This document shows positions 1,348 to 50,848 of a DNA stretch of 64,000 nt, piece by piece; the stretch's first letter is position 1; every line of letters begins with the position of its first letter. The DNA comes from Prochlorococcus sp. AG-402-I21 (lineage in GTDB: Bacteria; Cyanobacteriota; Cyanobacteriia; PCC-6307; Cyanobiaceae). A program made the position numbers and the translations under genes. The notes beneath the pieces were generated by a model that saw only the letters and a list, made by a program, of their open reading frames with translations, was not told the origin of the DNA and made no database searches. Location: contig QCHZ01000008.1 in the NCBI GenBank assembly GCA_003216955.1, positions 1 through 64,000 on the forward strand, given 5' to 3'.

Positions 1348-2997
1348 GTGTTTTCTACAGAATTTAGCCAACTTAAAGTTAAGTTAAACACACCTTTTAC
1401 TGATCAGAAGCCAGGTACTTCTGGTTTAAGAAAAAGTACTGTGCAGTTCGAAGAGGCTCATTACCTTGAGAGCTTTATTGAATCAATCTTGTGTTGCCTG
1501 CCTGGGGTGCAAGGAGGTGTTTTGGTTTTGGGAGGTGATGGAAGATATGGCAACAAAAGAGCGATTGATATTATTATTCGGATGGCAGCTGCGCATGGAA
1601 TTAAAAAAGTCATAACAACTGTCGATGGGATTTTGTCGACTCCTGCCGCTTCTAATTTGATTCGAATTAATAACGCAATCGGTGGAATTATTTTATCTGC
1701 TAGTCACAATCCAGGTGGACTTAAAGGTGATTTTGGAGTCAAGCTAAATGGTTCGAATGGTGGACCTGCCTCTGAGTCTTTAACTGATGAAATTTATAAT
1801 TACTCCAACAATCTTGAAGAATATAAGATCATCAAATGTCAATCAAATAATTCTTATTCACCTGGTAAATATAAATTAGCTTCAATGGTTCTCGAGATCA
1901 TTGATGGAATAGATGATTACTTAGATTTAATGAAAAAAATATTTGATTTTGATTTGATTAGTTCCTATATCAACAAAGATTTTCCAATCGTTTTTGATGC
2001 ATTAAATGCTGTTACGGGGCCATATGCAAAGCGTCTTTTTGTTGATCATTTAGGAGCTAATGTAGAAACGGTAAGGAATGGAATACCTCTGGAAGATTTT
2101 GGAGGTCTTCATCCTGATCCAAATTTGACTTATGCAAAAGATCTTGCTGACTTGCTTTTAAAAGGAAATTTATTTTCCTTCGGTGCAGCATGTGATGGAG
2201 ATGGCGATAGAAATATGATTTTAGGACGTGGTTGCTTTGTAAATCCTAGTGATAGCCTTGCAATTTTAGCTGCTAATTACGATTGTGTGCCAGGGTATGC
2301 AAAAGGTTTGTCTGGTGTTGCTCGTTCCATGCCGACGAGTTCAGCTGTAGATGTTGTGGCAAAACATTTAGGGATAAATTGCTTTGAAACTCCTACTGGA
2401 TGGAAATTCTTTGGCAATCTTTTGGAAGCTAATCAAATTACTCTGTGTGGAGAGGAGAGCTTTGGCACTGGAAGTGATCATGTAAGAGAGAAAGATGGAT
2501 TGTGGGCTGTTCTCTTTTGGTTACAGATACTTGCGACCAAGAAAAAGTCTGTTTCTGAGATAATGAGAAATCATTGGCTATTTTTTGGTCGTCATTATTA
2601 TTCTCGTCACGATTATGAATCTATTCCATCTGAAGTTGCAAATTCTTTGTATTCTAGATTGAGCAATTTGCTTCCCACTTTAAAAGATCAATCTTTTGCT
2701 GGAAGGATAGTGAAAAATGCTGATGATTTTAGCTATACAGATCCAGTTGATGGTTCAATTACTCTTAATCAGGGTTTAAGAATTTTATTAGATGATGGTA
2801 GTCGAGTGTTAGTACGACTGTCTGGTACGGGCACCCAAGGAGCTACTTTGAGAGTTTACTTTGAAAGCTTTGTTCCAAGTGATGGTGATATCACTCAAGA
2901 TCCGCAGTTAGCCTTGGATCCCTTAATTAAAAGTATTGATTCTCTAGCTGAGATTTCAAAACGAACAGGAATGTCTGCTCCGACAGTTATTACCTAG
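1348..2997 (+). CDS. pgm: phosphoglucomutase (alpha-D-glucose-1,6-bisphosphate dependent)
   Basis: The 549-residue protein is full length for the phosphohexomutase family and interconverts glucose 1-phosphate and glucose 6-phosphate, linking glycogen metabolism to central carbon flow. The phosphoserine loop is SASHNPGG (residues 117-124, catalytic Ser119), the metal loop is CDGDGDR (282-288) with Asp283, Asp285 and Asp287, and the sugar-binding loop is GEESFGTGSDH (368-378). The C-terminal phosphate-binding domain carries RLSGTGTQGATLR. GTG is the start codon; no closer ATG gives a complete N-terminus. The N-terminal KPGTSGLR motif is typical of the bacterial/eukaryotic Pgm1-type enzymes rather than of ManB/GlmM. 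It stands alone, followed by the RarA gene after 87 bp. Confidence 0.95.
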   Translation: MFSTEFSQLKVKLNTPFTDQKPGTSGLRKSTVQFEEAHYLESFIESILCCLPGVQGGVLVLGGDGRYGNKRAIDIIIRMAAAHGIKKVITTVDGILSTPAASNLIRINNAIGGIILSASHNPGGLKGDFGVKLNGSNGGPASESLTDEIYNYSNNLEEYKIIKCQSNNSYSPGKYKLASMVLEIIDGIDDYLDLMKKIFDFDLISSYINKDFPIVFDALNAVTGPYAKRLFVDHLGANVETVRNGIPLEDFGGLHPDPNLTYAKDLADLLLKGNLFSFGAACDGDGDRNMILGRGCFVNPSDSLAILAANYDCVPGYAKGLSGVARSMPTSSAVDVVAKHLGINCFETPTGWKFFGNLLEANQITLCGEESFGTGSDHVREKDGLWAVLFWLQILATKKKSVSEIMRNHWLFFGRHYYSRHDYESIPSEVANSLYSRLSNLLPTLKDQSFAGRIVKNADDFSYTDPVDGSITLNQGLRILLDDGSRVLVRLSGTGTQGATLRVYFESFVPSDGDITQDPQLALDPLIKSIDSLAEISKRTGMSAPTVIT

Positions 2998-3084
2998 ATC
3001 CAAAATCTTCTAATTTCAAATCATCAAAACAACTGTATAAGTATTTTTTTGCTTTTAGAGTAAAAAAATGTTTGTTTACCAGTT

Positions 3085-5292
3085 TTGGCCAAAGATCTGT
3101 TTGCTTTTCATGGTGAACAGCTAATTCAGAATAATGCTCCATTAGCTGATCGCTTACGGCCTAAAACACTTGATGAATTTGTGGGTCAAGATCACATTCT
3201 TGCTCAAGGACGTTTATTGAGACGCTCAATTGTTGCTGATAAAGTAGGCAACTTATTGCTTTATGGGCCACCAGGAGTTGGTAAGACTACTTTGGCTAGG
3301 ATTATCGCCTCAAATACCTTATCTCATTTTAGTGTCGTAAATGCTGCCTTGGCTGGTATCAAGGATTTGAGATCTGAGATTGAGTCTGCAATAGATAGAT
3401 TAAATAAATATGGTAAACGCACGATTTTATTTATTGATGAGGTTCATAGATTTAATACGGCTCAACAAGATGCCTTATTACCTTGGGTTGAAAATGGAAC
3501 TTTGACTCTTATTGGGGCAACTACGGAAAATCCATATTTTGAAGTTAATAAAGCTTTGGTCAGCAGATCTAGACTATTTCGTTTAAATAGTCTGAATTCA
3601 AAAGCTTTACATCAATTGCTGCAAAGAGCTTTAAGCGATAAGGAAAGGGGGTATGGGTTGAAATTAATCAATTTATCTAGTGAAGCTGCGGATCATTTGG
3701 TTGATGTGTCTAATGGTGATGCACGGGTTCTGCTTAATGCGCTTGAACTTGCTGTAGAAAGCACTATTGCAAATCAAGATAGTTCGATATGTATTGATCT
3801 CAATATTGCTGAGGATTCAATTCAAGAACGAGCGGTTTTATACGACAAACAAGGTGATGCTCATTTTGATACGATCAGCGCTTTTATTAAGTCATTACGA
3901 GGCTCGGATCCAGATGCGGCATTGTTTTGGCTGGCTCGAATGTTGGAGGCTGGAGAAAATCCACGCTTCATTTTTAGACGTATGCTCATCGCTGCAGGAG
4001 AGGATATTGGTCTGGCTGATCCAAATGCAATTGTCATAGTTGAGTCATGCGCGGCGGCTTTTGATCGAATTGGTTTGCCAGAGGGTATTTACCCACTAGC
4101 TCAGGCAACCTTGTACTTAGCTGCCACTGAGAAAAGCAATAGTGTGAAGGCTATTTTTAAGGCAGTTCAGAAAGTTAAAGATTCCCAAAAGCAAAATGTT
4201 CCGTCTCATCTTAAAGATGCAAGCCGAGATCAAGAAGCATTTGGAGATGGCCTGGGTTACAGCTATCCTCACTCATTTTCAAAAAATTGGGTACCTCAGC
4301 AATATTTACCAGATAGTTTGCTAAAAGAGAATTTTTGGGAGCCAACTGAACATGGATGGGAAGGGCAAAGACGATCTCTTTTGAATGAGAGACGATCTGA
4401 ACAGTTAGCTTCACTAATTGAAGTTGACAAACAAAATCCTTTAACTATTACATCTGGAAAAGTTGATAGTGACTTGGAGAAATGGTTATCTCACCAAGTT
4501 TTGCAAGAGGGGGAACGATTAAAAAACTTGATGACTAAATTATGGTCGGGTATTACTTGGAAAAAAAATCATAGAGTTTTAGTCTTAACACCTAGTTCTT
4601 TGCTTTGGTCTTTAAAGCCTTTAAGAGAGGTATCTGAAGGGGGAGTTGTTTTGGCTGTTTCAGAAGATAATCATCCAAGGTTATTAGCTGAATTAGAAGT
4701 TTTAGCTCCCATGGAGCGACCTGTTTTAATTGATTCAACTTTTGAATCAATTAAAAAATTAGAATACAATCTCAAATTTGAGGTGATTGGAGGAAGGATT
4801 CCATGGAAAGTTTTTTCTGAAATAAATTTTTCGGAATTATGGCCGATTCTTACTGAAAAATGTACAGAGAATGCAGACTTAAGTTTAATTATAAGTAACC
4901 CATCCTCTGGTCCTGCACTTTCTCTAAAGGAAAGCTTAGAAGCTTATAGCAATAATAAGAATAACGATTTTTTATTATTAGATAATTTAATTTGCAAAGA
5001 AGAGGAGTGGTTGCAAAAACAAGATTATAAAAAGACATTTATTCTACAATTAGAAAAATTAGGCTGGAATATTTCTTTTGAAGAATGGACTGAGTTTGTA
5101 TATCAAAAAGTTGATAGTTCTACAATTAAAAGATGGCTTACTGAAGGAAGTGATTATCGAGAAATCATTCTAAAAAATTGTAAGGAAGAAACATTAGATC
5201 GATTGCAGAAATTATTTAAAAGATTGGAAGGCAAGACTATAAAACAGAAACTTCTACATACTAAATATGTTGCCAAAAGAATGATTAGTTAA
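3085..5292 (+). CDS. rarA: RarA/MgsA replication-associated AAA ATPase fused to an extra C-terminal domain
   Basis: Residues 1 to about 430 are a RarA (MgsA/WRNIP1) clamp-loader-like AAA ATPase with Walker A GPPGVGKTT (61-69), Walker B ILFIDEVHRF (114-123), sensor 1 GATTENPYFEVN and the MgsA C-terminal region (ARMLEAGENPRFIFRRM). Such proteins act at stalled replication forks. About 300 residues follow that ordinary bacterial RarA lacks: a region (about 450-735) with alternating strands and helices, including VLVLTPSSLLWSLKPLREV and GGVVLAV, suggestive of a Rossmann or methyltransferase-like fold. RarA fused to such a domain is a known arrangement in cyanobacteria; the function of the tail is not established. 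TTG at 3085 is the start. The 3' end overlaps the convergent phosphopantetheinyl transferase gene by 8 bp. Confidence 0.9.
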   Translation: MAKDLFAFHGEQLIQNNAPLADRLRPKTLDEFVGQDHILAQGRLLRRSIVADKVGNLLLYGPPGVGKTTLARIIASNTLSHFSVVNAALAGIKDLRSEIESAIDRLNKYGKRTILFIDEVHRFNTAQQDALLPWVENGTLTLIGATTENPYFEVNKALVSRSRLFRLNSLNSKALHQLLQRALSDKERGYGLKLINLSSEAADHLVDVSNGDARVLLNALELAVESTIANQDSSICIDLNIAEDSIQERAVLYDKQGDAHFDTISAFIKSLRGSDPDAALFWLARMLEAGENPRFIFRRMLIAAGEDIGLADPNAIVIVESCAAAFDRIGLPEGIYPLAQATLYLAATEKSNSVKAIFKAVQKVKDSQKQNVPSHLKDASRDQEAFGDGLGYSYPHSFSKNWVPQQYLPDSLLKENFWEPTEHGWEGQRRSLLNERRSEQLASLIEVDKQNPLTITSGKVDSDLEKWLSHQVLQEGERLKNLMTKLWSGITWKKNHRVLVLTPSSLLWSLKPLREVSEGGVVLAVSEDNHPRLLAELEVLAPMERPVLIDSTFESIKKLEYNLKFEVIGGRIPWKVFSEINFSELWPILTEKCTENADLSLIISNPSSGPALSLKESLEAYSNNKNNDFLLLDNLICKEEEWLQKQDYKKTFILQLEKLGWNISFEEWTEFVYQKVDSSTIKRWLTEGSDYREIILKNCKEETLDRLQKLFKRLEGKTIKQKLLHTKYVAKRMIS

Positions 5293-13261: not shown

Positions 13262-14398
13262 ATGCGTGTCTTGGGTTTGATGAGTGGTACTAGTGCTGAT
13301 GGAATAGATGCAGTTTTGGTTGATTTTAAAGGTGATCCTTCAAAGCCAAAATGGAAAATTTTAAATACATGTTCATGTCAATATCCTTCATCAACAAGAA
13401 AAAAAATAATCCAAGTTGGACAAGGATTAAAAATTAACAGTAAAAATTGGCTTGAGTTGGCTGAGGAAATTACGGAACTAAATGCTTTTGCTGCAAGGAA
13501 TTGTGATCCTGAATCAACTGCAGAAGTTGTTGGATGTCACGGTCAAACTTTATTTCATAGAAGTGTAGAAAGATCTAAAAGAGGAGGAAGTCTTCAAATT
13601 CTTTTAGGACCTTTACTTGCATATATTTTAGATCAAATCGTCATTTATGATTTTAGATCAAAAGATATTGCTGCAGGTGGTCATGGTGCCCCTTTAGTAG
13701 CGTTAGTCGATGAAGCCTTGGTTGGAAGGCTTCATGGATGGAGAGGAGTTCTCAACCTTGGTGGAATTGCGAATATTACAATTATCCCACCTAAAACTGG
13801 AATTGATAAAACTTCTGAATGCTTAGGCTGGGATTGCGGACCGGCTAACTCTTTAATTGATCTAGCTATGACAGAAAGTACTCAGTCATCTTTAACTTTT
13901 GATCAGGATGGATCAGTAGCATCTCGTGGAGAACCTAACTTAGGAATTATCGAAAAGTGGTTGAAGGATCCTTTTTTTCATTTAGAACCTCCACGATCTA
14001 CAGGTAGAGAGCAATTCGGTTTCCAAGATTTACAAAAAAGGAAACAGGAATTAGGTGATATATCAACAGAAGATTTAATTTCAACATTAACTACATTTAC
14101 CGCATCAATAATCTCTCAAGATTTAGATAATATTTTTAGGCTTAAAAATATACGTTTAATTGAGCTTTTGGTTGCAGGAGGTGGAAGTAGAAATCTATTT
14201 TTAATGAGGCAAATACAGAAACAATGCCATGGTATTCATCTGCGTCCAATAGATGAAATTGGTATTCCTTCGCAATTTAGAGAAGCACTAGTTTTTGCAA
14301 CTTTATCTTGGTGGAACTTCTTAGGGAAAAAAGTGAATCCGAAGTACATAACAGGAGCAAACAAATCTATTTTATATGGAGTAAGAGTTGATCCCTGA
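13262..14398 (+). CDS. anmK: anhydro-N-acetylmuramic acid kinase
   Basis: AnmK cleaves and phosphorylates 1,6-anhydro-MurNAc to MurNAc 6-phosphate in peptidoglycan recycling. The signature [19 protein letters not shown] opens the protein; [43 protein letters not shown] and [11 protein letters not shown] follow in the family order, and [14 protein letters not shown] closes it. The 378 residues are full length. It begins 3 bp after ktrA and may be read from the same transcript, although the functions are unrelated. The GH3 hexosaminidase at 37196 would act in the same recycling pathway. Confidence 0.93.
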
Positions 14399-14416
14399 GG
14401 GTACTTGATTGAATAG

Positions 14417-14719
14417 TTAAATTCTTTTAAATTTTAATCTTTTTGGAATCCCTTTTAATCTTTGTGTTTTTTGCTTTTCTAATGCATTTATAAAATTTTG
14501 TGTTTTAGTTTTTTTTGTTTCTAATTCTTTAGATTCTGAACTTGCTCTCAATTCGTAATTCTTAACTCCTTCTTGAATTAATACTTTGGCCATATTACTA
14601 ACAGTTCTCGATTCTGTTTCGGCTAGCTCTGACAATCTGTCACATAAATCCTCTGGTAGGACAACTTGTATCCGTGGCGATTTCTGCTTCCCGTTCGATG
14701 AGTGTTGACGAGTAGCCAT
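14417..14719 (-). CDS. ribbon-helix-helix (CopG/MetJ/Arc-like) DNA-binding protein
   Basis: Residues about 14-55 fit a ribbon-helix-helix fold: a strand PRIQVVLPEDL, helix CDRLSELAETES, turn, and a second helix SNMAKVLIQEGVKNYE. The remaining 45 residues are highly charged and Lys-rich, possibly extra DNA or RNA contact. At 100 residues it is typical of a small transcription factor or antitoxin-like regulator, but no toxin gene is next to it. Its start faces a region with several inverted repeats (14731-14780), which suggests autoregulation and possibly control of the divergent gene at 14858. Confidence 0.75.
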   Translation of the reverse strand: MATRQHSSNGKQKSPRIQVVLPEDLCDRLSELAETESRTVSNMAKVLIQEGVKNYELRASSESKELETKKTKTQNFINALEKQKTQRLKGIPKRLKFKRI

Positions 14720-14730
14720 GCTTGCAAAGA

Positions 14731-14780
14731 ACTACCAGGTAGTAAATAGTGTACACTTATACGCAAGGGTAGTATCCTTG
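14731..14780. promoter_or_regulatory. cluster of inverted repeats, candidate RHH operator
   Basis: Three palindromic elements lie between the divergent starts at 14719 and 14858: ACTACC-A-GGTAGT at 14731-14743, AGTGTACACT at 14749-14758, and CAAGG-7-CCTTG at 14764-14780. The heptamer GGTAGTA occurs at 14738-14744 and again at 14768-14774, exactly 30 bp apart, about three helical turns. A TATGAT hexamer at 14783-14788 could be the -10 box of the rightward gene. Small RHH proteins usually bind such short palindromes upstream of their own genes; binding here is an inference. Confidence 0.5.
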
Positions 14781-14857
14781 TGTATGATGCTTGCTAATCT
14801 GGCCAGTTTTGCCTTATCAACCTTTACTTAAATTTTTTGATTTAAAAGGAGTATTCC

Positions 14858-15214
14858 ATGTCTAAGCCATCTCTTCCACAAACATCAAAGCCTCTTTCTG
14901 CAAATGTTGTTGTCAATAAAGGAACTATAAAACGACAAAGAAGGAAGAGTCGTAACAATGGCAAGAATGGAGATGTTCTAATTTCTGCTGTTGTTAGTTC
15001 TTATTTATTAACTCATTTACACCATGTTTTGCAAAGAGCAGAATATGGGGCCAGTAAAGAAGGAAGAGCTTCTCATGCTGCAAACTTTGCTCAACTTCGT
15101 AAAGTCCTTTGCATGGATGCTAGAAGCATGAAAGACGCCTCTGCTTTAGGTTTAAAAGAAAGTGATTTAGATATGTGCAATGAATCAACTGGTTTCGGGA
15201 CAAAAGCTGCATAA
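14858..15214 (+). CDS. conserved-type hypothetical protein with basic N-terminus (118 aa)
   Basis: The gene has an AAAAGGAG ribosome binding site 8 bases before the ATG. The first 36 residues are polar and then strongly basic (IKRQRRKSRNNGKNG), followed by a predicted helical domain (VLISAVVSSYLLTHLHHVLQRAEYG) and a region with two Cys (LCMDARSM, DMCNES). No signal peptide or clear membrane segment is present. I do not recognise a family. It is followed 32 bp later by the Nif11-like gene and lies downstream of the RHH operator candidate, so it may be under that control. Confidence 0.7.
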   Translation: MSKPSLPQTSKPLSANVVVNKGTIKRQRRKSRNNGKNGDVLISAVVSSYLLTHLHHVLQRAEYGASKEGRASHAANFAQLRKVLCMDARSMKDASALGLKESDLDMCNESTGFGTKAA

Positions 15215-17470: not shown

Positions 17471-18688
17471 TTATAGCTGCAGATCATAAATATCAATTGG
17501 TTTAATAATTTTTAAGAGCTCTATATTCTCTCTAAGTATTTTAATTTTCAGATTCGATTGAATATTATTCTTATTGATTTTTTGTACCACATCTGACGGA
17601 GTAAAAATCTTTTCATTATTGATTGCGATTATTAGATCATTAACTTTTAATCCGCCTTTCTCGGCAGGACCATTTGGCATCAAATATTTAATAATTGCAC
17701 CATTTTCTGTTTGGGAAAGAAAATTATTTTTTTGTTTAATATTGCTTGCAAGTGTAACTCCTATCATAGGGTGTTTGGCTCTACCATTTGTGATTAAATC
17801 TTTAGCGATTTTTCTAGCTCTATTTATTGGTATTGCAAAACCTAACCCTGCCCCTGGCCCTGAGCGAACAAGAGTATTAATACCAATCACTTCTCCATCC
17901 GAATTCAACAATGGCCCCCCAGAATTACCTGGATTAATCGCTGCATCAGTTTGAATGAGATCTATTCTTTTATCGGATATACCTAATTGAGCAACATCTC
18001 TATTTAGATTGCTAATTATTCCAAGAGTTACCGTATTTTCAAGTCCAAAAGGATTTCCAACTGCAATAGCCCAATCACCAACTTTTAAATTATTGGAGTC
18101 TCCTAATTTAGCGGTGGGCCAAGGGCCTTTTGATTTGAGTTTAATAACTGCAAGATCCGTTAAAGAATCTTCTCCAACAACACTTCCAAGTACTCTTCTT
18201 CCATCTGATAAACCCACTATGAGTTGATCAGTTTTTTCTACTACATGAGCATTGGTCAAGACTAGACCTTCTTCAGAAAAAATTACTCCACTACCTTGAC
18301 CTTTTTCAATTCGAGATCGCGGAACTCGGAGGCCTCGGAGACCAAAGAATCTTTCAAAATATGGATCATTTAAGATTCCAGGAGGAAACATGCCTTCACT
18401 TGAAGATAAAACTTTACGCTCCGTTTCAATTGTGACAACTGCATCTCCACTTATATTTAATGCTTTTGATACGAAGGATTGTTTAGTGCTTTTTTGTGGT
18501 GTTTCTAGTAATGCTTCATTGGAATGCAGCGGAGTTTCAAATCGGAAATTTAAAAAAATAAGAAAAACCAAAACAAAAATTTTAAAATATTTTTGTTGGG
18601 GTATTCTTAGGGATTCTATTAGTATTCCCTTTGCATCTAATCCATGCATGATTTTTTGAAAGGGATTAGTTTTTATTATCAAAATCAA
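17471..18688 (-). CDS. HtrA/Deg-type serine protease with one PDZ domain
   Basis: The protein has an N-terminal signal anchor (about residues 34-50, YFKIFVLVFLIFLNF), a trypsin-like domain with His148 (LTNAHVVEK), Asp178 (LTDLAVIKL) and Ser256 (NPGNSGGPLL), and one PDZ domain (about 300-400, MIGVTLASN and GPAEKGGLKVNDLIIAINN). Deg proteases handle damaged or misfolded proteins outside the cytoplasm or at the thylakoid membrane. One PDZ domain is the cyanobacterial HhoA/HhoB/HtrA pattern; which of the three this is cannot be said. A second in-frame ATG (18649) is a possible start and leaves the signal anchor intact. Confidence 0.92.
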   Translation of the reverse strand: MILIIKTNPFQKIMHGLDAKGILIESLRIPQQKYFKIFVLVFLIFLNFRFETPLHSNEALLETPQKSTKQSFVSKALNISGDAVVTIETERKVLSSSEGMFPPGILNDPYFERFFGLRGLRVPRSRIEKGQGSGVIFSEEGLVLTNAHVVEKTDQLIVGLSDGRRVLGSVVGEDSLTDLAVIKLKSKGPWPTAKLGDSNNLKVGDWAIAVGNPFGLENTVTLGIISNLNRDVAQLGISDKRIDLIQTDAAINPGNSGGPLLNSDGEVIGINTLVRSGPGAGLGFAIPINRARKIAKDLITNGRAKHPMIGVTLASNIKQKNNFLSQTENGAIIKYLMPNGPAEKGGLKVNDLIIAINNEKIFTPSDVVQKINKNNIQSNLKIKILRENIELLKIIKPIDIYDLQL

Positions 18689-18872
18689 TAATAGCTAATT
18701 TGAGAATTGAAAGATCCATTAATTTCATTACAGTAGATTTTTAATAAGAACTTATGTTTGAACTTTATTTCCTTTAGACTTCTGCTCTAGTATTTTTTTT
18801 TATGATGAAACTAGAATTTCTTCAAAACTTAATCTGACTTAAGGCCTTCAGTTTTTCTGTATCATTTTGAAA

Positions 18873-19151
18873 ATGTTGAGTAATTTTTTACCTTTTGTTT
18901 ATGGCCTTTCAGTTTTTGTTTTGTTAATTTTGGCTGCCAGGGTAATGATGAATGGTTTTTTCTCCGGTCAATCATTTTTAAAAACTCAAAATTCACTATC
19001 TAAGACAAGAAATGAGGATCGAACAGGTTTGGTTACTGTTCATCCTGAGCTTTTAAAAGAAGATGGCTGCATTACTGATGAAGATTTGCTCACAGTTCGT
19101 TTTTCAAAGGACACTGATCATCCACAATCATCTGAAAAGCCTTATGAATAG
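18873..19151 (+). CDS. DUF2973-type small membrane protein
   Basis: The 92-residue product begins MLSNFLPFVYG and has one N-terminal membrane helix (about residues 5-27) followed by a polar region with RNEDRTGLVTVHPELL and an acidic segment DGCITDEDLLTVRF. This matches the cyanobacterial DUF2973 pattern, a helix plus a TVHPE-type sequence. A TTG two codons upstream (18867) could also start it. Function is unknown. Confidence 0.7.
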   Translation: MLSNFLPFVYGLSVFVLLILAARVMMNGFFSGQSFLKTQNSLSKTRNEDRTGLVTVHPELLKEDGCITDEDLLTVRFSKDTDHPQSSEKPYE

Positions 19152-19205
19152 TTTTCATTAGATTTTTTTAATTGACATTCAATAGTTCTCAGAGAGGTTT
19201 TAATT

Positions 19206-19589
19206 TTGGAACAAAGAACCCGCATAGTCGCTGCAGTTTTGAAAAACATGAAGTTACCTCCAAGGTTTCGTCTTAGATTATTAAAGGAAGATCCAGTCAG
19301 GCTCGAACTAAGTCTTACCCCAGCATATGGAAAAGATCCTATTCAAGTTGGGTTAGTAGAATCTCTTGATTTAGTTGCCAGACGTGATAGGGAAGGAAGA
19401 ATGCCTAGAGATTTACAAGGAACATGGGATTGGACAGTGCGACACGGGGAGGTTAGTACTGGAGGATGGAATCCTTATTTAAAAGAAGCTCTTCAAACAA
19501 TGTTCGAAACTGGATTACCAGCAATTATTTATGAGGAGCTAACTGGAGAGGATTATCATCCAGTTGATGGCGCAAGACACGTTAGATAG
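19206..19589 (+). CDS. conserved-type cyanobacterial hypothetical protein (127 aa)
   Basis: A soluble protein begins at TTG 19206, preceded by AGAGAGG at 19191-19197. It is rich in Arg/Lys and has the sequence MPRDLQGTWDWTVRHGEVSTGG followed by NPYLKEALQTMFETGLPAI. No cofactor or catalytic motif is recognised. Its length, codon use and position 54 bp after the DUF2973 gene support it as real. I do not know the family. Confidence 0.75.
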   Translation: MEQRTRIVAAVLKNMKLPPRFRLRLLKEDPVRLELSLTPAYGKDPIQVGLVESLDLVARRDREGRMPRDLQGTWDWTVRHGEVSTGGWNPYLKEALQTMFETGLPAIIYEELTGEDYHPVDGARHVR

Positions 19590-48441: not shown

Positions 48442-48513
48442 TCCTCGGTAGCTCAGCGGTAGAGCGATCGGCTGTTAACCGATTGGTCGCAGGTTCGAAT
48501 CCCGCCCGGGGAG
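48442..48513 (+). tRNA. trnN: tRNA-Asn (anticodon GTT)
   Basis: The 72-nt sequence folds as a tRNA: acceptor TCCTCGG pairs with CCGGGGA (T4-G wobble), the D arm is GCTCAGCGGTAGAGC, the anticodon loop CTGTTAA with GTT at 48474-48476, and the T loop is GGTTCGAATCC. The discriminator base is G, normal for tRNA-Asn. CCA is not encoded. It lies 29 bp after the ABC ATPase stop. Confidence 0.97.
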
Positions 48514-48529
48514 TTTTTCACTACAACCA

Positions 48530-48565
48530 AAGACCCTAAAGGCCTTTTAAAGCCTCCCGGGTCTT
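48530..48565 (+). terminator. hairpin downstream of tRNA-Asn
   Basis: AAGACCC (48530-48536) pairs with GGGTCTT (48559-48565), and an inner AGGC pairs with GCCT. The stem is strong, but the following bases are not a clear T-run, so it may be a processing or weak termination site rather than a classical terminator. Confidence 0.45.
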
Positions 48566-48804
48566 AGGTAGTTGTTTTGCTTTTCTAATCCATGCTTGCT
48601 AGACGTAATATGGCATCAGGAGGGTCTAGGAGCATTTAGCAAAAGTGCATTTCTCCCATTTGTTCAATAAATAGTAAATAGTTCTTTGGAAAAGTTAAAT
48701 ACCTCAGTCATCTCGATCTATGTTTTCAAGGAAAATAATTTACTAAAGAGTTTCAAGATCAATTGAGTTGGTATTAGAATTTTGTCTATAGAAGTGTATA
48801 AAAG

Positions 48805-49779
48805 ATGAAAGAGTCTGGTAAAAGAGAGCAAGAGCAAAAAAAGATTACTGAAGTTCAGACATACTCAGTTCCATTGGCTTTAGAAGATATCAAACAAAAT
48901 ATATTTATTATTAATACTTCTTTTAAACAATCCATAACAACAATACGTAAGCAAGCATTTAAGCTTCATTCAGAAGGCAAAATCTCTGAAGCAGCTGAAC
49001 ATTATCAAAATCTCATAACTCATGGCAGTAATGATTACAGGGTTTTCACTAATTATGGAGGAATATTAAAAGATCTTGGCCGATTAGAAGAAGCAGAATT
49101 ATCGATTCGCAAAGCGATTGAACTGAATCCTGCTTTCGCAATGGCTCATTTGAATTATGGAGGAATATTAAAAGATCTTGGCCGATTAAAAGAAGCAGAA
49201 TTATCGAGTCGCAAAGCGATTGCACTTAATCCTGCGTTTTCAGAAGCTTATTTAAATTTAGGAATCATATTGACAGATCTTGGCCGATTAGAAGAAGCAG
49301 AATTATCGACTCGCAAAGCGATTGAATTGAATCCTGGTTTAGCAATGGCTCATTCAAATTTGGGAAGCATATTGAATGAACTTCGCCAATTAGAAGAAGC
49401 AGAATTATCTACTCGCAAAGCGATTGCACTGAATCCTGGTTTAGCAATGGCTCATTTAAATCTTGGTGTTATATTTTTAAATCTTGGTCAATTAGAAGAA
49501 GCAGAATTATCGACTCGCAAAGCGATTGAACTGAATTCTGGTTTGGCAATGGCTCATTTAAACTTGGGTAATATTTTGATAGATCTTGGAAAATTAGATG
49601 AGGCTTTTTTATGTTATGAGGTAGCAATTGACCTTGATCAAAAGCTTGATTCTGCAATGGTAGGGATCGGGAGAATACTCTTATCGAAAGGTAATCATTC
49701 AGAAGGTATTAGTAAACTTAGAGAAGCTGTTGGTTCCATCGGTTTTAATCCTCAAAAGCCCTCTATAATTATTTATTGA
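48805..49779 (+). CDS. TPR repeat protein with near-identical 34-residue units
   Basis: After a polar N-terminus of about 45 residues, the 324-residue protein consists of tetratricopeptide units of 34 residues, starting near residue 48 and then in strict phase from residue 82 (TNYGGILKDLGRLEEAELS) to about 319. Units 2 to 6 differ in only a few positions (RLEEAELSTRKAIELNPGLAMAH type), indicating recent duplication. TPR domains bind other proteins. The stop is directly followed by the ATG of the oxygenase gene (TGA at 49777-49779, ATG at 49780), so the two are translationally coupled and probably work together. A substrate or scaffold role for the oxygenase is an inference. Confidence 0.85.
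   Translation: MKESGKREQEQKKITEVQTYSVPLALEDIKQNIFIINTSFKQSITTIRKQAFKLHSEGKISEAAEHYQNLITHGSNDYRVFTNYGGILKDLGRLEEAELSIRKAIELNPAFAMAHLNYGGILKDLGRLKEAELSSRKAIALNPAFSEAYLNLGIILTDLGRLEEAELSTRKAIELNPGLAMAHSNLGSILNELRQLEEAELSTRKAIALNPGLAMAHLNLGVIFLNLGQLEEAELSTRKAIELNSGLAMAHLNLGNILIDLGKLDEAFLCYEVAIDLDQKLDSAMVGIGRILLSKGNHSEGISKLREAVGSIGFNPQKPSIIIY
49048..49659 (+). repeat. 102-bp tandem repeats encoding TPR units
   Basis: Six units of 102 bp run from 49048 to 49659, the last one diverged. The central block GAAGAAGCAGAATTATCGA and CGCAAAGCGATTG recurs nearly unchanged at DNA level in the first five units. This is well above what protein selection alone would keep, pointing to duplication or gene conversion and possible copy-number variation. 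Confidence 0.85.
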
Positions 49780-50376
49780 ATGAAAAAAGTAGAGCTAGCT
49801 TCTGGAGGTGAAAACCCCAACTTTATTGGCTCTTGGACAATAGAACCGATCCAAACTTGTGATGATCTTATATCTTACTTTGAATGTAATATCCCTAAGC
49901 AAAAAGCTGGATTATCAGTTGGTGGTTTAAATCTAGAAACAAAAGATAGCGTTGATATTACTATTAATCCTAGAGAAATTGCCTTACCAGGGAATGAATC
50001 ATTTAAAACATATTTTGATGAACTTTTTGAATGCTATAAAAACTATGTAGAAACATGGCCTTTTTTAAAAAATATATCGGAAAGATTAGAAATTGGTTCC
50101 TTTAATTTACAAAGATATAAACCTGGTCAACATTTTAAAAAAATACATACTGAACGATCATCTTTGCAAAGTCTTCACCGAATTTTTGCGTTTATGACTT
50201 ACTTGAATGATGTTCAAGAGGGAGGTTCAACATATTTCAGTCATTATGATCTTGAAATAAAACCTAGAAAGGGTTTGACTTTAATTTGGCCTGCTGAATG
50301 GACTCATGCACATAGAGGTAACATATTAAAAGAAGGTTCAAAATACATCATTACTGGTTGGATTAATTTTTGCTAA
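49780..50376 (+). CDS. prolyl-4-hydroxylase-like 2-oxoglutarate/Fe(II) oxygenase
   Basis: The C-terminal half (about residues 100-198) is a double-stranded beta-helix of the P4Hc type: LQRYKPGQHFKKIHTE gives the metal pair His123-x-Glu125, LNDVQEGGSTYF is the conserved strand, HAHRGNILKEGSKYIITGW gives distal His178 and 2-oxoglutarate-binding Lys188. The usual pair is His-x-Asp; here it is His-Thr-Glu. The N-terminal 100 residues have no known domain. The enzyme would hydroxylate a protein or small molecule; the TPR protein upstream is a natural partner. No signal peptide. Confidence 0.87.
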   Translation: MKKVELASGGENPNFIGSWTIEPIQTCDDLISYFECNIPKQKAGLSVGGLNLETKDSVDITINPREIALPGNESFKTYFDELFECYKNYVETWPFLKNISERLEIGSFNLQRYKPGQHFKKIHTERSSLQSLHRIFAFMTYLNDVQEGGSTYFSHYDLEIKPRKGLTLIWPAEWTHAHRGNILKEGSKYIITGWINFC

Positions 50377-50848
50377 TTGGTTAGATACCGAAAGTATTTG
50401 ATACTTTGCAGAACAATAGATAAGAAATAAAAAGAAGTTTTATCTTTAGCTTTGGAGGAAGGAGAACTTCAGTATTTATTTTTTATACGTATGCAACTTT
50501 TTGCTTGTGATCCAGAAATATTTTTCTGATATTTACTAGCTTTTCAAACCTTATTAAATTTTTTGAGATAAATTCGTTTTTAAATAAACGTATTTATGAG
50601 CATTTTTAATAAAAGTTTTTAGAGATCCGTAACAGTTGAGCCCCCGAATTGGAAGACTTTCTAAAGAGAGCAAAACTTTTTTTAGTCTTTAAATTCCTGA
50701 AAAATCAGTGATAGTATGGCATTTTCTCCATTTTGCTATTTAAAAACGAATTTTTTCAATTCTGCAATAAAAACAAAATTTTGAGAGAATCATACAAATC
50801 TCAAGTAATCGCAACTGCGGGTACTTTTTAAAACTTGGGCAATTATTA
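50377..50848. other. 472-bp intergenic region upstream of rpaA
   Basis: No open frame of meaning is found. There is a perfect hairpin at 50391-50407, a purine-rich run GGAGGAAGGAG around 50454-50464 with no suitable start codon close behind, and a C-run with CCCCCG near 50641. The length is unusual for this compact genome; it may contain a long rpaA leader, an unlisted small RNA or the remains of lost genes. Confidence 0.5.
50391..50407. terminator. perfect 7-bp-arm hairpin after the oxygenase gene
   Basis: AAAGTAT-TTG-ATACTTT begins 15 bases after the oxygenase stop codon. The stem is AT-rich and has no long T-run behind it, so termination is possible but not assured; it could also be a binding site. 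Confidence 0.4.

Follow-up and report, generated by a model that had tools for sequence, protein, structure and literature searches.

The window, as we call the whole stretch of 64,000 nucleotides analysed here, originates from a Prochlorococcus genome comprising 37 contigs and 1.73 Mb. It harbors a tRNA-Asn (GTT) gene on the forward strand (48442–48513), which was identified by ARAGORN and Rfam. Immediately downstream, a strain-specific insert (48514–50592, with an approximate right edge) separates the tRNA from a conserved block upstream of rpaA (50593–50848, forward strand) that is present in both empty and occupied sites, with homology to empty sites starting at about position 50593. The first of the two forward-strand genes of this insert (48805–49779) encodes a TPR protein of 324 amino acids (Pfam TPR_1, E=2e-40), in which leader and first TPR precede six regular repeats, with a degenerate repeat and a tail at the C-terminal end. 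The N-terminal leader ITEVQTYSVPLALEDIKQNI... (48805–48930) belongs to a type whose family form, KTFPVPFALGE.KENI, was obtained from an alignment of 25 genes of the same genome. The regular repeats (49036–49647) are tandem TPRs of 34 residues, which all contain an Asn at position 6 (6/6, as part of NLG or NYG) and thus display the Asn ladder known from O-GlcNAc transferase (OGT), a feature that extends to 224 of 262 repeats across the paired TPR proteins described below. On the DNA level, the repeats have a period of 102 nucleotides and are 63–84% identical, which suggests that they are moderately young, so that their description as ‘very recent’ in an earlier note on this DNA was too strong. 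The degenerate last TPR and the conserved C-terminal tail (49657–49776) contain the sequence GSIGFN (49732–49749) and were delimited in a tail alignment of about 85 pairs.

The second gene (49780–50376) encodes a prolyl-4-hydroxylase (P4H)-like 2OG-Fe(II) oxygenase of 198 amino acids, which matches the Pfam family 2OG-FeII_Oxy_3 (PF13640) with E=7e-12 and 46.5 bits at a cut-off of 27 and whose profile matches include the P4H of Bacillus anthracis and the viral P4H of PBCV-1. The Fe/2OG ligand signature HxD/E...H...K is represented by the motif H123-T-E125 (50146–50154), H176 (50305–50307) and K188 (50341–50343), with H123, E125, H176 and K188 being invariant among 29 relatives. The HxE signature, also named in the earlier note, is kept in all cellular (80/80) and viral (80/80) relatives examined. 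Both profile and ligands place the protein among P4H-like oxygenases, with the name P4H, as used here, referring to fold and sequence only. In a comparison with NCBIfam models, including those of PKHD and PiuC, no family matched at E<=0.01.

The stop codon of the TPR gene and the start codon of the oxygenase gene abut as TGA|ATGA (49777–49783) with zero gap and in frame. Coordinates, junction and Pfam assignments thus agree with the previously proposed order of a tRNA-Asn, a TPR gene and an oxygenase gene whose ATG follows without gap, an arrangement that likely confers translational coupling. Since other pairs have out-of-frame junctions (+1, +4, –1 and –2), the two genes are not a single gene that was split by a nonsense mutation. 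For the same reason, and with zero fused versions among the pairs found, we also ruled out that they are remnants of a split fusion. The pair was described to be unlike its surroundings, which holds locally but not on a genome-wide level, as there is a second TPR-P4H pair on another contig (C6:13299–14857) and a total of 39 TPR matches in the genome.

The integration site between tRNA-Asn and rpaA

Comparison of the interval between tRNA-Asn and rpaA across genomes of the same genus reveals an integration hotspot, whose attachment site is the 3' end of the tRNA gene. Most complete intervals are empty and span 342–490 bp. The TPR-P4H pair occupies the site in three strains (the window, G021 and G035, with the latter being cut by a contig end), while the cargo found in other strains includes two long TPR genes (G011), a TPR-methyltransferase fusion (G032), a carbamoyltransferase gene (G036), other ORFs (G007) and, elsewhere, remnants. 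At the far end of occupied sites, homology to empty sites returns, and exactly at this distal junction the 3' end of the tRNA gene is repeated with 17/20 matching positions in four strains (G007, G011, G036 and G022), whose intervals otherwise contain no match better than 10–12/20. Weaker matches in the pair-containing strain G021 (13/20, seven bases off the junction) and in G062 (11/20, one base off) are possibly decayed distal repeats. The search for such a repeat in the insert of the window was negative and its 2.3-kb interval does not contain a recombinase gene, the TPR and P4H genes being its sole gene-like ORFs. In these two respects, the insert differs from the tycheposons of Prochlorococcus (PMC10872708), which the site resembles in the presence of cargo at a tRNA gene and, in other strains, of tRNA-end repeats at the far junction. 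The three pairs found at this site (in the window, L129 of G035 and L135 of G021) fall into three different clades of the P4H tree and thus look like separate insertions or exchanges. At the site of G036 (L101), we also noted, besides the tRNA-end repeat at the far junction and the carbamoyltransferase gene (2815–4683), an ORF of 61 residues (1676–1858), which by eye has the appearance of an AlpA-type regulator and is without match in Pfam.

Recurrence of the gene pair and its conserved tail

A scan of GTDB species genomes identified 231 cellular relatives of the oxygenase, of which we examined the best 80. Among these, one was without upstream sequence and 75 of the remaining 79 informative cases carry a TPR gene directly upstream of the P4H gene, with both genes mostly abutting or overlapping. 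These relatives span Prochlorococcus, Alpha-, Beta- and Gammaproteobacteria and one Flavobacteriales MAG. Within the genus, all copies of the P4H subfamily with upstream sequence reside behind a TPR gene, the two being joined at 0, +1 or +4 nucleotides or separated by short gaps. The P4Hs without TPR partner are found in four related gammaproteobacteria (L189, L195, L197 and L203), where the upstream region contains no TPR ORF in three cases and an unrelated ORF in L189. Their grouping into one nested clade of the P4H tree (100/96) is consistent with a single loss of the partner. The placement of Prochlorococcus P4Hs in two or more positions within the proteobacterial sequences points to horizontal transfer. 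With the pair being confined to some of the strains at the tRNA-Asn site, most of which are empty, and with TPR-P4H neighbours recurring almost without exception in cellular relatives, both the interpretation of the insert as an island and of the two genes as a functional pair, as put forward in the earlier note, are supported.

The neighbourhoods offered no hint at a substrate, with wide recurrence being limited to further TPR genes, at 35 loci, and to a TonB-receptor-like family, at 18. A member of the latter, in one case confirmed by Pfam, is located within 4 kb of a pair or a TPR-less P4H at 18 cellular loci, including L156, L160, L169, L171, L173, L179, L181, L183, L184, L186 and L188. 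The neighbours of the four TPR-less P4Hs are a TonB-receptor-like gene and a gene of tryptophan-halogenase type, identified as PF04820 in L189.

About 85 paired TPR proteins share the ending ...G....LL..G...EG(L/I).......GxIxF(D/N)..., which in loci of the genus sits 8–12 residues before the stop codon. In this tail the Gly is invariant, I/V is found in 99%, Phe in about 94% and D/N in about 92% of cases, with the latter position being occupied by His in two pairs and by Glu, Arg, Thr or Gly in some others. A profile search of eight genomes retrieved 11 hits, which correspond one to one to the 11 P4Hs of the subfamily found beside them. A conserved core P4H that is present in each of the eight genomes, and of HxD type in the genome of the window, is without tail, and no tail was found by the profile in G002, which contains 43 leader-TPR genes and zero subfamily P4Hs. 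As the tail is restricted to TPR proteins encoded ahead of a P4H gene, we rejected the idea that it is a common ending of TPR proteins in general. It singles out the actual partner from dozens of similar TPR genes and provides an interface to test.

In Prochlorococcus (n=16), Mantel correlations of P4H and tail (r=0.77) exceed those of P4H and leader (0.33) and of tail and leader (0.21, not significant). On contig C6 of the genome of the window (L044), two TPR genes (13886–14863 and about 17812–19299) share 90% identity across 953 bp at the 5' side and diverge at their 3' ends, with the former carrying the tail of a P4H pair and the latter a fused C-terminal module, which appears to reflect a recent module swap or duplication. 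Together, co-divergence and this case suggest that the 5' half of the TPR gene is exchanged while the tail and P4H travel as a unit.

To model the arrangement of tail and enzyme, we submitted the C-terminal 76 residues of the TPR protein together with the oxygenase to AlphaFold (AF2) as a single chain in which the stop was read as Gly, a device that relies on the in-frame arrangement of stop and start found in some pairs and implies no claim on the genetic code. The resulting models of the pair in the window (pLDDT 89.9, pTM 0.85) and of a divergent Methylophilaceae pair (pLDDT 88.6, pTM 0.84) both exceed a pTM of about 0.73, which is our own estimate for an unplaced small domain, with pLDDT values below 50 at the joint in either case. 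AlphaFold thus confidently places tail and enzyme together, in chains whose connection by one residue forces proximity and from alignments with 11 (window) and 10 (Methylophilaceae) truly paired rows. Rows containing only the tail were left out, as they misplaced the tail ends. The predicted shape of the tail differs between the two models, with a hairpin in the Methylophilaceae pair and one strand of three residues in the window.

Leader-TPR genes in Prochlorococcus

Leader and TPRs are common to about 25 genes in the genome of the window, where they are found on contigs C6, C10, C19, C22 and C3, and to 2 to 45 genes in those genomes of the genus that are complete or nearly so (41–45 in each of the complete genomes G034, G011 and G002, 14–17 in three others and 2 in G026), which makes the family very large for the genome size. 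The modules following the leader at the 3' side comprise sulfotransferase, methyltransferase, GT41-like, 2OG_Oxy_5, glycerophosphotransferase-like or unknown domains, and neighbours of these genes include CTP-transferase, SIS/CBS, DAHP-synthase-type, GDP-mannose dehydratase and carbamoyltransferase genes, with surface-sugar genes among them. In one case (L046, contig C10, 12478–15755) a row of cytidylyltransferase, SIS/CBS and DAHP-synthase-type genes beside TPR-enzyme genes has the look of a KDO-type sugar pathway. Several leader-TPR proteins (L048 10000–12000, L050 6793–8526, L044 at about 17812–19299 and L051 67–1017) carry a recurring C-terminal module that terminates in the motif HMCDxxHLSPxCLxxLFxNHLYxP, for which no Pfam match beyond TPR was found in three scanned proteins. 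Proteobacterial islands share the same habit with TPR N-termini of their own.

Proposed function of the pair

As the P4H is almost always encoded right behind a tailed TPR gene, we consider it reasonably probable that both proteins constitute one split, TPR-guided protein hydroxylase. The 198-residue protein would serve as its P4H-like oxygenase half and the TPR protein as dedicated adaptor, whose C-terminal tail, comprising the degenerate TPR and the GxIxF[D/N] segment, is predicted from the models to dock on the oxygenase. The groove of the TPRs with its Asn ladder might, as in OGT, hold an extended protein or peptide substrate, and the abutting or overlapping stop and start codons would ensure that both chains are produced in step. 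In Prochlorococcus, leader and TPR 5' half would be swapped among TPR-enzyme genes, with tail and oxygenase moving together, in a module that resides in islands, the tRNA-Asn integration site being one of them. We infer proteins as the substrate class of the oxygenase, which probably adds oxygen to them, and their recruitment by the TPR groove is suggested by analogy to OGT, collagen P4H and AspH.

The resemblance to these systems is in each case partial. Foldseek ranks P4Hs first, followed by P3H1 and AspH, both of which combine TPRs and oxygenase within one chain. The P4Hs from Bacillus anthracis, Pseudomonas putida (PPHD, with EF-Tu) and PBCV-1 (vCPH) are the best matches to the oxygenase in sequence and fold, but their sequence similarity is weak (E of about 1e-10 to 1e-6) and we know of no TPR partner for any of them. 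The collagen P4H α subunit and P3H1 (Foldseek 7zsc, 8k0f) share a P4H-type fold and a helical-repeat part for substrate binding, which in the former is a TPR-like peptide-substrate-binding domain connected to the catalytic domain (PMC12433258). Unlike in these one-chain proteins, repeats and oxygenase are separate ORFs in every pair found, with a Glu as carboxylate ligand and the tail as link. Equally, AspH, which is devoid of an Asp/Glu iron ligand, matches over about 330 columns in Foldseek and places TPRs next to a 2OG oxygenase, whereas in the pair the chains are separate and the Glu of the HxE motif is invariant. AspH is described as an Asp/Asn hydroxylase of EGF-like domains with both domains in one chain (PMC6817910) and its iron site is contrasted with the usual triad (PMC13168262). 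OGT and SPINDLY-type TPR-GT41 proteins share the Asn-ladder groove, and GT41-like enzymes are fused to the same leader-TPR module in the genome of the window, but the enzyme of the pair is a different one and not fused to the TPRs. Finally, PiuC, YbiX and CciO are likewise 2OG oxygenases in a conserved gene pair, and a TonB-receptor-like gene is found near some gammaproteobacterial pairs, yet the oxygenase is of a different family, as judged from the NCBIfam PKHD comparison, and its partner is a TPR protein.

As main rival, the TPR protein could itself be the substrate, with the oxygenase hydroxylating the Asp/Asn following the Phe of the tail or the repeats, in analogy to FIH and ankyrin repeats. 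The strict pairing and the prevalence of Asp or Asn, and in two cases His, in the tail would be in line with this possibility, as FIH tolerates the same three residues. Still, we regard it as rather unlikely, in light of the Glu, Arg, Thr or Gly found at this position in some pairs and the better conservation of Gly, Ile/Val and Phe, which are poor targets. Moreover, the Asp is located at a hairpin turn in one of the AlphaFold models, which suggests a structural role, and the tail lies where an enzyme-docking element would be expected. A comparably unlikely, if slightly less plausible, role of the oxygenase would be the modification of a cell-surface sugar, lipid or other small molecule, with the TPR protein acting as scaffold of a glycan-modifying assembly. 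The diverse enzyme modules and sugar-related neighbours of genes with the same leader would fit such a role, as would the TonB-receptor-like gene near 18 cellular loci, since the transported molecule was suggested to be the target of PiuC/YbiX-type oxygenases beside TonB receptors (PMC12004947). Conversely, the nearest solved relatives of the oxygenase are protein hydroxylases and none of the NCBIfam models, those of PKHD and PiuC included, matched it. TPRs with an Asn ladder, in turn, usually bind peptides.

The mobility of the pair invites two further explanations. Both genes reside in mobile islands and could travel together as mere neighbours without joint function, but the persistence of the pair across phyla and in unrelated neighbourhoods, its matching tail, coupled start and stop codons and the 11-to-11 co-occurrence of tail and P4H render this highly improbable. 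We assign even less credence to a phage-borne auxiliary gene that was left behind in the tRNA site. Phages are drawn to tRNA sites, and the oxygenase matches PHROG_61 (1e-37) with relatives in 426 phage records, but the viral relatives do not exceed about 45% identity, are never accompanied by an upstream TPR gene (0/80) and are located on the opposite side of a fully supported branch (100/100) from cellular P4Hs, while the leader has no phage match. On account of this split, we have rejected its membership in a phage auxiliary family defined by PHROG_61.

The features that are new here are the tail, the breadth of the pair across phyla and the leader family. We found no description of the TPR-P4H pair in the open-licence literature, where absence is no proof, nor a paper assigning it a function. 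Returning to the split hydroxylase that we favour, its relation to the wider family raises the tentative and still somewhat doubtful idea of a combinatorial repertoire for protein or surface modification, in which up to about 45 genes per 2-Mb Prochlorococcus genome would combine one leader and an exchangeable TPR array with swappable enzyme modules (sulfotransferase, methyltransferase, GT41-like, 2OG oxygenase), with the P4H module joining by a docking tail instead of fusion and recombination of the 5' half re-targeting the enzymes. In low-light Prochlorococcus, TPR families are reported to outnumber all others and were linked to photosystem II (PMC11357015), and the wider leader-TPR family may explain this abundance. 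The pair itself would define a hydroxylase module that consists of two proteins and is conserved among ocean bacteria of very high abundance, including Prochlorococcus, Pelagibacter, SAR92, SAR116 and Methylophilaceae, and as such would provide a concrete handle on bacterial protein hydroxylation.
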